Assembly: GCF_024623785.1 (NCBI RefSeq)
Contig: NZ_JANKBZ010000011.1
Coordinates: forward strand, 248,001-312,000
Source of the DNA: Archangium lipolyticum
GTDB taxonomy: Bacteria; Myxococcota; Myxococcia; Myxococcales; Myxococcaceae
Length of the DNA stretch: 64,000 nt
Direction: 5' to 3'
The notes beneath the pieces are model-generated. The model was not told the DNA's origin, ran no database searches, and saw nothing but the letters and a program-made list of their open reading frames with translations. Both the position numbers and the translations under genes were made by a program. Of this stretch, positions 52,795 through 56,247 are shown one piece after another (within the stretch, counting starts at the first letter, position 1; each line of letters opens with the position of its first letter).

Positions 52795-54822
52795 ATGAGC
52801 GTGGAATACAAAATCAAGGTTCGCACGGGCGCTCGTCTGGGGTCAGGGACGGACACCGACATCAGCGTCGTTCTGGTGGGCTCACTGGGAGAAAGCGAGC
52901 AGCACGTCCTGAACAAGCGCTTCCACAACGACTTCGAGGCGGGGGCGGAGGATGTCTATACGCTCCAGACCCGGGATGTCGGTGAGTTGCTGCTGCTGCG
53001 CTTCACCAACTCCGGGGGTCTGGCGGCTGACTGGCTCCTCGACTTCGCCCATGTCACCTCGGGTGACAAGAGCTGGCACTTTCCACACTACCGCTGGGTC
53101 CTGGGCGGTACGACGGTCGAGGTCCTCGAGGGCTCGGCCGTGTTGCCGCAGAACGTGCGTCACGTGCGCACGGTGGAGGCCCGCCGCGCGCAGCTCGAGA
53201 ACCGCAAGAAGATGTACCCCTGGCGCCCCGCCGAGGCGACCGCCGGGTTGCCCGGCGCGCTCGACATCAGCAAGGAGCGTCCGCTGCCCAAGGACGAGCT
53301 GTATCGGAACCTGACCGAGGGCAGCTACGAGACTGTCATCGCCAGGACGATGGCCACGCTCCGGCTGCACCTGCCCCTCCTGGCCGATGCCTGGAATGGG
53401 TTGGTGGATACGCTCGGCATTCTCAAGCACCTGGAACTGCCCAAGCTCGCCGAGCGGTGGCAGGACGATCACGAGTTCGCGCGGCAGGCCGTCCAGGGCG
53501 TCAATCCGCTCCACATCACGAGCATCACCGCCCTGCCCGAGGGAATGCCGCTCACGGACCACGAGGTCCGGGGCCTTTTGTCGCCGGGCACCTCGCTGGT
53601 GGGGGCACTCGAAGCCAGGCGGGTGTTCCTGCTCGACTTCGAGGTGCTCGAGGGCATTCCCATGTTCCGCAAGGTCGACGAGCACGGAGTCGAGGAGCGG
53701 CGCTGGGCGCCCGCGTCCCGGTGCCTGCTCTACCTCGAGGATTCCCAGCGGCTGCGTCCGCTCGCGATCCAGCTGGGCCGTGACCCCGCGAAGGATCCCG
53801 TGTTCACCCCGAACGATTCCGAGGCGGATTGGCTCGCCGCGAAGATCTACCTGCGTTGCAGCGAGGGCAACGCCCACCAGATGATCGCGCACGCGCTGCG
53901 CACGCACTTCGTGGTGGAGCCGTTCGTCATGGCGACGATGCGCAACCTGCCGGATCCGCACCCCATCTACAAACTGATGCGCCGCCACTTCCGCTACACG
54001 CTCGCCATCAACGAGGGGGCGCGCAAGGGCCTGCTCGACGAGGGCGGCGTGTTCGACGACTTCATCGCCACCGGTGGTCCGGACAAGGGACACATCAAGC
54101 TGGGCCAGAAGGGCTTCCAGCGCTGGAAACTGGCGGACAACAAGCCGCGCCTGGACCTCCAGCGCCGGGGCGTGCTCGATCCCGCCATCCTGCCCGACTA
54201 CCCGTACCGGGATGATGCCCTGCCGCTGTGGGACGCGCTCGAGGAGTTCGTGGGAGGCGTGCTCGCCCCCTTCTACAAGTCCGACGCCGACCTGGTGAAC
54301 GACACCGAGATACAGGCCTGGTGGGCGGATCTCCTCGAGCACGGCATCCCCGTCGACAAGATGCCCTGTGCCAGGCTCGAGCGCGTCGCGGACCTCGCCG
54401 ACATCCTCACCACCGTGCTCTACACGGGCAGCGTCCACCACGCCGCGGTGAACTACCTCCAGTACGAGCACTACGCCTTCGTCCCCAACGCGCCGCTGTG
54501 CATGCGCAAGCCTCCCCCGGCGCAGAAGGGCGTGCTGCGCCTGGAAGACATCACCGAGATGATTCCGACCAGATCCCAGACCCTCTGGCAGGTCGCCATC
54601 GGACGCGCGCTCGCCAGCTTCGGCGAGGACGAGGAGTTCCTGCTCAACGAGGGTGGGTGGAGGGAGACGTACTTCCAGGAGCCCGGGTTCCTCGCCATCC
54701 GGGAGCGGCTCTACGAGCGGTTGCGTGCCCAGCTCGAGGCGGTGAAGGCCCGCAACGCGAAGCGCGACGTCCCCTACACGGTGCTCCAGCCAGACCGGGT
54801 CCCTTGCGGCATCACCGTCTGA
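52795..54822 (+). CDS. Lipoxygenase with PLAT domain
   Basis: A 675-residue non-heme dioxygenase that inserts oxygen into polyunsaturated fatty acids to form hydroperoxides. Residues ~1-120 form a PLAT/C2-like domain (YKIKVRTGARLGSGTDTDIS). The catalytic domain has the first two iron ligands H361 and H366 in HQMIAHALRTHFVVEPF, then H549 and N553 in HHAAVNYLQYE; the final residue V675 would be the fifth ligand (usually Ile). The Coffa-site residue is A409 in INEGARKGLL, which predicts S stereochemistry. No signal peptide. It is followed after 45 bases by a cytochrome P450 gene. Confidence 0.95.
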   Translation: MSVEYKIKVRTGARLGSGTDTDISVVLVGSLGESEQHVLNKRFHNDFEAGAEDVYTLQTRDVGELLLLRFTNSGGLAADWLLDFAHVTSGDKSWHFPHYRWVLGGTTVEVLEGSAVLPQNVRHVRTVEARRAQLENRKKMYPWRPAEATAGLPGALDISKERPLPKDELYRNLTEGSYETVIARTMATLRLHLPLLADAWNGLVDTLGILKHLELPKLAERWQDDHEFARQAVQGVNPLHITSITALPEGMPLTDHEVRGLLSPGTSLVGALEARRVFLLDFEVLEGIPMFRKVDEHGVEERRWAPASRCLLYLEDSQRLRPLAIQLGRDPAKDPVFTPNDSEADWLAAKIYLRCSEGNAHQMIAHALRTHFVVEPFVMATMRNLPDPHPIYKLMRRHFRYTLAINEGARKGLLDEGGVFDDFIATGGPDKGHIKLGQKGFQRWKLADNKPRLDLQRRGVLDPAILPDYPYRDDALPLWDALEEFVGGVLAPFYKSDADLVNDTEIQAWWADLLEHGIPVDKMPCARLERVADLADILTTVLYTGSVHHAAVNYLQYEHYAFVPNAPLCMRKPPPAQKGVLRLEDITEMIPTRSQTLWQVAIGRALASFGEDEEFLLNEGGWRETYFQEPGFLAIRERLYERLRAQLEAVKARNAKRDVPYTVLQPDRVPCGITV

Positions 54823-54867
54823 GTCGTTGCTCCTCCCGCCCCACCCGTGTCTCCAAGGAGTCCATCC

Positions 54868-56247
54868 GTGCCGAACCCGCTGTCTCGAGGTCTGTTCAAC
54901 CTGTTCTTCGGCTCCAGACGCCGGGCCTTCGCGTCCCTGCCCGGGCCCGTGCCTGGAATCCTCGGCAACGCCGGAGACTTCCTCGGTGGCGAGAAGCCCT
55001 GGAACGTCTGTGCGCGCTACGGCCGTGAGTACGGAGGCGTCACCCTGGTCTGGCTGGGGCCCAAACCGGCCCTGGTGCTCAACGATCCCACGCTCATCGA
55101 GCAGGTGCTCGACTCCCGCCGCATGGAGTTCGAGAAGGGCTCGCTCCACGAGCAACTCAAGCCGACCACGACGGAGCACTCGATCTTCATCGCGAACCTG
55201 AATGGGGACTGGGCCACGAAGCGCCAGCAGGATCCCTTCGTCCAGTCCTGGTCACCCCGGTGGCTGGCCGCCCAGGTCGCCCCCATGCAGGCGGTGATCA
55301 CCGAGGCCGTCAACGCCCTCATCGCGAGCGGGAAGACGGTCGATCTCGCGCCCGTGCTCCGCCGGCTGACGTTCGACGCCTTCGCCGTTGCTGGCATGGG
55401 CGAGAAGACACCGGACTCGGTGTACGAGGACTTCATGCTGCTCGCCAAGGGGGCGGATGCGCGGCTCCAGTCCAATCTGCCCTTGAGGTTCGTCTCGTTG
55501 CCCAAGGGCTTCGAGGCCGCCCGTGAGCGGTTCTACCGGTTCTTCGAGGAGCGTCTCGGTGCCTTGCGCCGCTCCCCCAAGCCGGAGGCCACGGACCTGA
55601 TGTCATGGATGCTGCGCGAGATGCCCGGCTTCGACGACAAGTGGCTGGCGCGCCACGTCGCGCTGATGTTCTACGGCGGTGTCTTCTCGTCGAGCACCAC
55701 GCTGGTGGGCGCGTTCCACCAGGTGCAGAAGCACCCCGGCGCCGAGGCGCGGCTCGTGACCGAGGCCGCCACGTTCGCCGGGGGGCCACCCACCCTCGAG
55801 CGTTTGAACGACGCGCGGTGGCTCGAGGCCGTCACCCTCGAGGCGCTGCGGATTCTTCCCGCGGTCCGCGTCTTCATCCGCACCCCGGTCAAGGACGTGC
55901 AGTTCGCCGGCGTCACGTTGCCGGCGGGGACGACACTCATGATCTCCAACCAGCACCTGCACCGAGACCCCACGCACTGGCCCAACCCGGACTCCTTCGA
56001 GCCCGAGCGATGGCTGGACGGAGGCCTGGCGAGAGATCCCATCGGCAGCGGCCACTTCTTCCCGTTCGGCCGGGGCCCGCGCATGTGCGTGGCCACCGAC
56101 TTCGCCATGGTGTTCCTGCGCACGGCCATCGCGACGATCGCCGCTCGCGCCAGGGTCCAGGTCGCCTCGACGGAGCCCTTCGAGGAGGGCTTCTTCTTCG
56201 GCGTGGTCCTCCCCACGAACGTCCACGCGAAGTTCATCGCGCGCTGA
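54868..56247 (+). CDS. Cytochrome P450 with non-canonical I-helix, lipoxygenase partner
   Basis: A 459-residue P450 from the GTG at 54868 (AAGGAG upstream). Heme ligand C407 in FPFGRGPRMCVA (the usual final Gly is Ala), E325-x2-R328 of the K helix in LEALRI, and PERWLDG of the meander. The I-helix reads FYGGVFSSSTTL: where typical monooxygenases have AGx(E/D)T, this has GGVFS, so the acid that delivers protons to oxygen is missing. P450s acting on peroxides without O2 (allene oxide synthases, hydroperoxide lyases) often lack the acid/alcohol pair, and the preceding gene is a lipoxygenase. A hydroperoxide-converting enzyme is inferred. Confidence 0.88.
   Translation: MPNPLSRGLFNLFFGSRRRAFASLPGPVPGILGNAGDFLGGEKPWNVCARYGREYGGVTLVWLGPKPALVLNDPTLIEQVLDSRRMEFEKGSLHEQLKPTTTEHSIFIANLNGDWATKRQQDPFVQSWSPRWLAAQVAPMQAVITEAVNALIASGKTVDLAPVLRRLTFDAFAVAGMGEKTPDSVYEDFMLLAKGADARLQSNLPLRFVSLPKGFEAARERFYRFFEERLGALRRSPKPEATDLMSWMLREMPGFDDKWLARHVALMFYGGVFSSSTTLVGAFHQVQKHPGAEARLVTEAATFAGGPPTLERLNDARWLEAVTLEALRILPAVRVFIRTPVKDVQFAGVTLPAGTTLMISNQHLHRDPTHWPNPDSFEPERWLDGGLARDPIGSGHFFPFGRGPRMCVATDFAMVFLRTAIATIAARARVQVASTEPFEEGFFFGVVLPTNVHAKFIAR

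Follow-up and report, generated by a model that had tools for sequence, protein, structure and literature searches.

The window analyzed here, a stretch of 64,000 nucleotides from Archangium lipolyticum, carries a lipoxygenase (LOX) gene and a cytochrome P450 gene, both of them intact (Table 1). The LOX reading frame matches the PLAT domain (7e-17, 63 bits) and the Pfam lipoxygenase family PF00305 (3e-74, 251 bits, above the Pfam cut-off). Its nearest solved structure is that of coral 8R-LOX (3.5e-120), with which it aligns end to end, followed by human 5-LOX and 11R-LOX. The ligand set characteristic of the active-site iron, His-His-His-Asn plus the C-terminal carboxylate, is present in full as H361, H366, H549, N553 and V675, the last position being Val or Ile in the orthologues. 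At the Coffa position, where Ala by the usual rule goes with S stereochemistry, the alignment places Ala409 in the window LOX and Gly in coral 8R-LOX, which predicts that the window enzyme forms an S-hydroperoxide.

The downstream gene matches PF00067 (1.2e-48). Its orthologues begin with V/M/L-P-N, in agreement with the GTG at 54868 that has AAGGAG just 5' of it, and on this basis the gap between the two genes measures 45 bases. The ExxR motif (EALR) and the heme-binding motif FGRGPRMC are intact, and the I-helix segment LMFYGGVFSSSTT aligns with the AGHETT of ordinary P450s. The conventional acid–alcohol pair of helix I, AGx(E/D)T, is found neither in the window P450 nor in its family, and the Arg-Pro in helix I that defines the CYP152 peroxygenases is likewise missing, GGxFS standing there instead. 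GGVFS is unusual within the A. lipolyticum genome, since 24 of the 29 other P450s examined have an AGx(E/D)T-type motif, the rest having mostly AGHTT, AGYES or a fragment. When a predicted model of the P450 (pLDDT 79) was compared with the PDB using VIA-align, BM3 (which oxidizes fatty acids), CYP97 and CYP184 came first among the 50 entries listed; CYP74 was not among these 50, which we do not take as evidence. A sequence-only reading of the same stretch had described a LOX with all His/Asn iron ligands, followed after 45 bases by a P450 with GGVFS in place of AGx(E/D)T, and each part of that description holds.

Table 1. Features of the LOX–P450 pair and of genes found beside related P450s. 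Positions refer to the window unless a locus identifier (L) is given.
Feature	Position	Strand	Basis or remarks
PLAT and lipoxygenase gene, 675 aa	52795..54822	+	Pfam matches, ligand alignment
LOX iron-ligand codons H361...H366	53875..53892	+	Sequence alignment
LOX iron-ligand codons H549...N553	54439..54453	+	Sequence alignment
Intergenic gap, 45 bases, with AAGGAG ribosome-binding site before GTG 54868	54823..54867	+	
Acid-less cytochrome P450 gene	54868..56247 (mechanical ORF from 54847)	+	PF00067, orthologue starts
I-helix GGVFS, residues 277-281 of the 54847 ORF; Phe for the acid, Ser for Thr	55675..55689	+	
Heme-thiolate Cys414 in FGRGPRMC, without CYP74-type insertion	56086..56088	+	
Fatty-acid desaturase gene	L060:11434-12279	+	Same place in L019, L050, L055, L057, L059, L061, L063, L065
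Di-heme cytochrome c peroxidase/RoxA-like gene	L067:11406-13076, L068:11319-12974	-	Zavarzinella and Gemmata

The LOX–P450 pair extends beyond a single myxobacterium. When one genome from each of 85,000 species was scanned with the P450 as sole query, 44 loci were returned; 42 of them belong to the family of the window P450, and two (L086 and L087) lie outside it. A LOX gene is located within about 250 bases of the P450 gene in 32 of the 42 family loci and is absent beside it in 10, and it lies directly upstream in all 23 close myxobacterial orthologues. Myxobacterial holders of the pair are Corallococcus, Myxococcus (including M. xanthus), Pyxidicoccus, Archangium, Citreicoccus and Sorangium. 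The LOX gene comes first in myxobacteria, in Acaryochloris (two bins), in L078 and in Qipengyuania, where the two genes overlap by 4 bases, and the P450 gene comes first in four Leptospirales records, one of them with two such pairs in tandem. The pair is also found in a bin named Kuenenia and in a deltaproteobacterial bin with the order LOX–P450–LOX; several of the pair-bearing records are metagenome bins, whose organism names are provisional. Of the 59 whole genomes compared, which comprise that of the window and those of relatives, seven hold both orthologues, one (G015) holds the LOX only and none the P450 only, and wherever both are present they are adjacent. In the six relatives with the pair, identity to the window proteins is 62–95% for the P450 and 67–95% for the LOX. 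One Corallococcus copy (L064) has a broken P450 frame and a LOX that is cut short, and in Zavarzinella the sole LOX lies about 15 kb away from the P450. The sequence-only reading had suggested looking for the pair in other myxobacteria and had named homologues that never adjoin a lipoxygenase as a refutation; the pair is conserved in other myxobacteria, and the adjacency is seen in five phyla and in either gene order. We regard it as virtually certain that LOX and P450 work in one shared pathway. How often the pairing arose is a separate matter: the tree of the paired LOXs requires four changes at the fewest, and several origins are not established, as a single clade is not rejected (AU p 0.074).

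Two further arrangements were seen in the course of this survey. The small contig L083 (1-4495) carries LOX, P450 and LOX genes in a row, and the I-helix of its P450 reads GGQMG, with neither acid nor alcohol. A genome of the same genus has a second P450 copy (L016:8742-10130, + strand), 66% identical and with the motif SGVFS, whose neighbors include a sensor kinase and an APH-family gene but no LOX.

Clustering of the neighboring proteins yielded only three broadly conserved genes: the P450, the LOX and a divergent LOX-like gene (about 690 aa) that has a partial PF00305 match and a transthyretin-like N-terminal region. The LOX-like gene is found at the locus in most myxobacteria (L060:5680-7749 on the - strand, with L015, L017, L019, L051 and L073 also listed), whereas the copy of the window's own genome lies outside the window, on another contig (L003:430-2538); in a Pirellulaceae bin it stands beside the P450 without the LOX. 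In the sequence alignment, the LOX-like protein is missing the first His ligand and has kept H379, H384, H588, N592 and the C-terminal Ile; its predicted model (pLDDT 51) was too poor for use. A fatty-acid desaturase gene, which sometimes overlaps the P450 gene, follows directly 3' of it in nine distinct loci, M. xanthus included, and is absent beside the window's pair. Both the divergent LOX-like gene and the desaturase gene thus often belong to the locus. No redox-partner gene was recognized among the neighbors scanned, and in three Leptospiraceae loci a thioredoxin/AhpC-like gene comes after the LOX. In Gemmata and Zavarzinella, where the P450 has no LOX beside it, a di-heme cytochrome c peroxidase/RoxA-like gene lies next to the P450 in convergent orientation instead. 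Since the fatty-acid 10S-dioxygenase of Pseudomonas aeruginosa falls within this superfamily (PMC4496055), the RoxA-like gene could possibly provide these two genera with an alternative source of hydroperoxide, which we offer as no more than a lead.

To place the P450, a tree was built by a quick method from 46 family members, distant matches and further P450s from the window's genome. The 46 form a single clade (SH-aLRT 100, stem 1.01) that excludes the genome's other P450s and extends over Myxococcota, Planctomycetota, Spirochaetota, Cyanobacteriota and Pseudomonadota. The residue at the acid position is Phe in 30 members, Tyr in six, Val in six, and Ile, Met, Trp and Thr in one each; neither Asp nor Glu occurs there. 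Ser takes the place of Thr in 45 of the 46, and the heme Cys and ExxR are present in all of them. The out-of-family matches L086 and L087 have AGHHT and AGHET, respectively. The family is nested among ordinary AGHET P450s, and against its profile CYP74A fragments reach only 34–35 bits, whereas AGHET P450s from the window's genome reach as much as 126 bits. The nine-residue heme-loop insertion of CYP74, with its loss of FxxGxRxC, was not found in the window P450, and neither candidate position holds a distal residue of the Asn321 type, the structural position implied by PMC13049297 being Ser281 and the sequence-aligned one Met. With heme loop, distal Asn and scores all against it, membership in CYP74 is rejected. 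Because the family is nearer to AGHET P450s than to CYP74 and is without the heme-loop insertion, the acid was most likely lost within ordinary P450s, apart from CYP74, and the scores and the heme loop support the separateness from CYP74 that the sequence-only reading had proposed. An apparent '(F/Y)GG' shared by CYP74A and the family in the sequence alignment was dropped as evidence of homology, since structural work (PMC13049297) implies that the residue three places ahead of this GG, Asn321, occupies the Thr position.

For M. xanthus, the LOX step of the locus has already been characterized biochemically: MXAN_1744 and MXAN_1745 are active 11- and 12-LOX enzymes that convert arachidonate to 11- and 12-HpETE (PMC5760719). 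Given arachidonate, cultures produce hepoxilins and trioxilins; the epoxyalcohols (hepoxilins) are formed by the purified LOXs alone (PMC5760719). That study tested the LOXs, epoxide hydrolases, COX and two putative TXA synthases, the latter being inactive, and we found no mention in it of the P450 of the LOX–P450 locus. The M. xanthus proteins are 73% (LOX) and 64% (P450) identical to those of the window. The LOX family is represented in strain AM003 by two genes only, both in the LOX–P450 locus, and since there are no others, the LOX and the LOX-like protein of the locus are almost certainly the characterized 11-/12-LOX enzymes, taken as an unordered pair. If the LOX-like protein is one of MXAN_1744/1745, it has been reported to be active despite its missing ligand. 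A literature search, with most subscription journals outside its reach, gave no paper on the adjacent P450, on MXAN_1743/1746 or on a bacterial LOX with a P450, which does not prove the P450 to be undescribed. A MeJA-induced P450 from Archangium (PMC6997564) could not be linked to that of the window.

Taken together, these data enable us to propose a two-step route. The LOX would use O2 to convert a polyunsaturated fatty acid, the cell's own, derived from prey or made by the desaturase, into an S-hydroperoxide, which would serve as the substrate of the dedicated acid-less P450. The heme thiolate of the P450 would cleave the O–O bond of the hydroperoxide and rearrange it without external O2 or a redox partner/NADPH, giving an epoxyalcohol, an allene oxide, a diol or a cleavage product. 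Since their substrate already carries the O–O bond, peroxide-rearranging P450s need no acid–alcohol machinery, and it is this class that is best fitted by an I-helix that has lost the acid and carries Ser, together with a constant partner that makes fatty-acid hydroperoxides. No common distal residue is seen in helix I of plant AOS (FATCFN321TWGGMKI), PGIS (ATQGN287MGPA) and TXS (AGYEI345), some fungal AOSs have a nonpolar residue or Thr at the distal position, and an axial Asn is thus not needed by all of these enzymes (PMC13049297). A two-gene oxylipin pathway of this kind, with O2-independence, product class and role as the parts that we infer, appears to us moderately probable. Against an isomerase, proton delivery assisted by substrate or water allows some acid-less P450s to remain monooxygenases, and bacterial P450s frequently have no neighboring redox-partner gene. 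The Ser retained at the alcohol position and the 10 family loci without an adjacent LOX point the same way, as do the M. xanthus LOXs that make hepoxilins unaided (PMC5760719).

The disappearance of the acid from all 46 members across five phyla, with a hydroperoxide maker as the constant partner and no redox gene recognized among the neighbors scanned, sits poorly with a conventional monooxygenase, which would hydroxylate or epoxidize the LOX product with the help of O2 and a redox partner whose gene lies elsewhere, protons being delivered via Ser281 and water. Such an enzyme would nevertheless agree with the nesting of the family among AGHET P450s, the near-invariant Ser and a predicted fold closest to BM3, an oxidizer of fatty acids, CYP97 and CYP184 among the entries listed, and redox partners are presumably present in a genome with dozens of other P450s; we judge it unlikely, while giving it real weight. 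A peroxygenase or peroxidase, for which the LOX hydroperoxide would oxidize a second substrate or be reduced in self-protection, would also agree with the missing acid and redox partner and the LOX adjacency, and with the thioredoxin/AhpC-like gene behind the LOX in the three Leptospiraceae loci, but is rendered quite improbable by the lack of a conserved gene for a second substrate and of a CYP152-type Arg-Pro in the I-helix region. That the adjacency is incidental or inherited, with no common pathway, is barely credible, because, even though common descent links most of the myxobacterial loci, the pair recurs in five phyla and in both gene orders while the other surroundings are not conserved. 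The rearrangement of LOX hydroperoxides by the P450 is the reading that we retain. As for its extension to the whole family, in which P450s over five phyla would have evolved from ordinary monooxygenases into self-sufficient hydroperoxide isomerases tied to LOX, some having switched to a RoxA/10S-DOX-like source (Gemmata, Zavarzinella), we find the case evenly balanced.

Several known systems resemble the proposed pathway. The coral allene oxide synthase–lipoxygenase fusion (2fnq, 3dy5), the source of the nearest solved LOX, also ties a LOX to a hemoprotein that converts hydroperoxides, its partner there being a catalase-related heme protein rather than a P450. In plants, acid-less CYP74 enzymes (allene oxide synthase, hydroperoxide lyase and divinyl ether synthase) likewise use the hydroperoxides of 9/13-LOX, and if Asn321 sits at the Thr position in accordance with PMC13049297, Phe occupies the acid position in both Arabidopsis AOS (ATCFN) and the window P450. 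The window P450, however, belongs to a bacterial gene pair, is without the heme-loop insertion and the distal Asn, and keeps the canonical FGRGPRxC. A peroxide maker is also coupled to a self-sufficient P450 in the fungal DOX-CYP fusions (linoleate diol synthase, EAS, AOS) and in COX with PGIS/TXS (PMC13049297), but in the present case the peroxide maker is a non-heme-iron LOX instead of a heme DOX or COX, and unlike in the fungal fusions LOX and P450 are separate genes and the I-helix is different (GGxFS). The M. xanthus 11-LOX/12-LOX pair (MXAN_1744/1745) almost certainly comprises the LOX orthologue and the divergent LOX-like protein of this locus. CYP74-like P450s of Methylobacterium are assigned to the CYP74 clan, with fatty-acid hydroperoxides given as their substrates (PMC10813956); the family of the window P450 lies outside by its score against plant CYP74A.

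In plants, a LOX and a peroxide-rearranging P450 lead to jasmonates and green-leaf volatiles, and related DOX-CYP and COX routes exist in fungi and animals. The pair described here points, from its sequences, to a bacterial route to hormone-like lipids with an origin separate from that of the plant one. If this is true, an independent bacterial counterpart would offer a further test of how a P450 leaves O2 chemistry and a source of compact bacterial enzymes with which to make oxylipins, and M. xanthus knock-outs could probe the role of oxylipins in bacterial predation or development.

Finally, two loci contain tandem P450s (L081:4183-6966 and L082:8261-11377), in which a P450 with AGTEI precedes a GGVFS family member. 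The AGTEI motif resembles the AGYEI of thromboxane synthase, and in L082 the AGTEI P450 is fused to a cyclic-nucleotide-binding domain.
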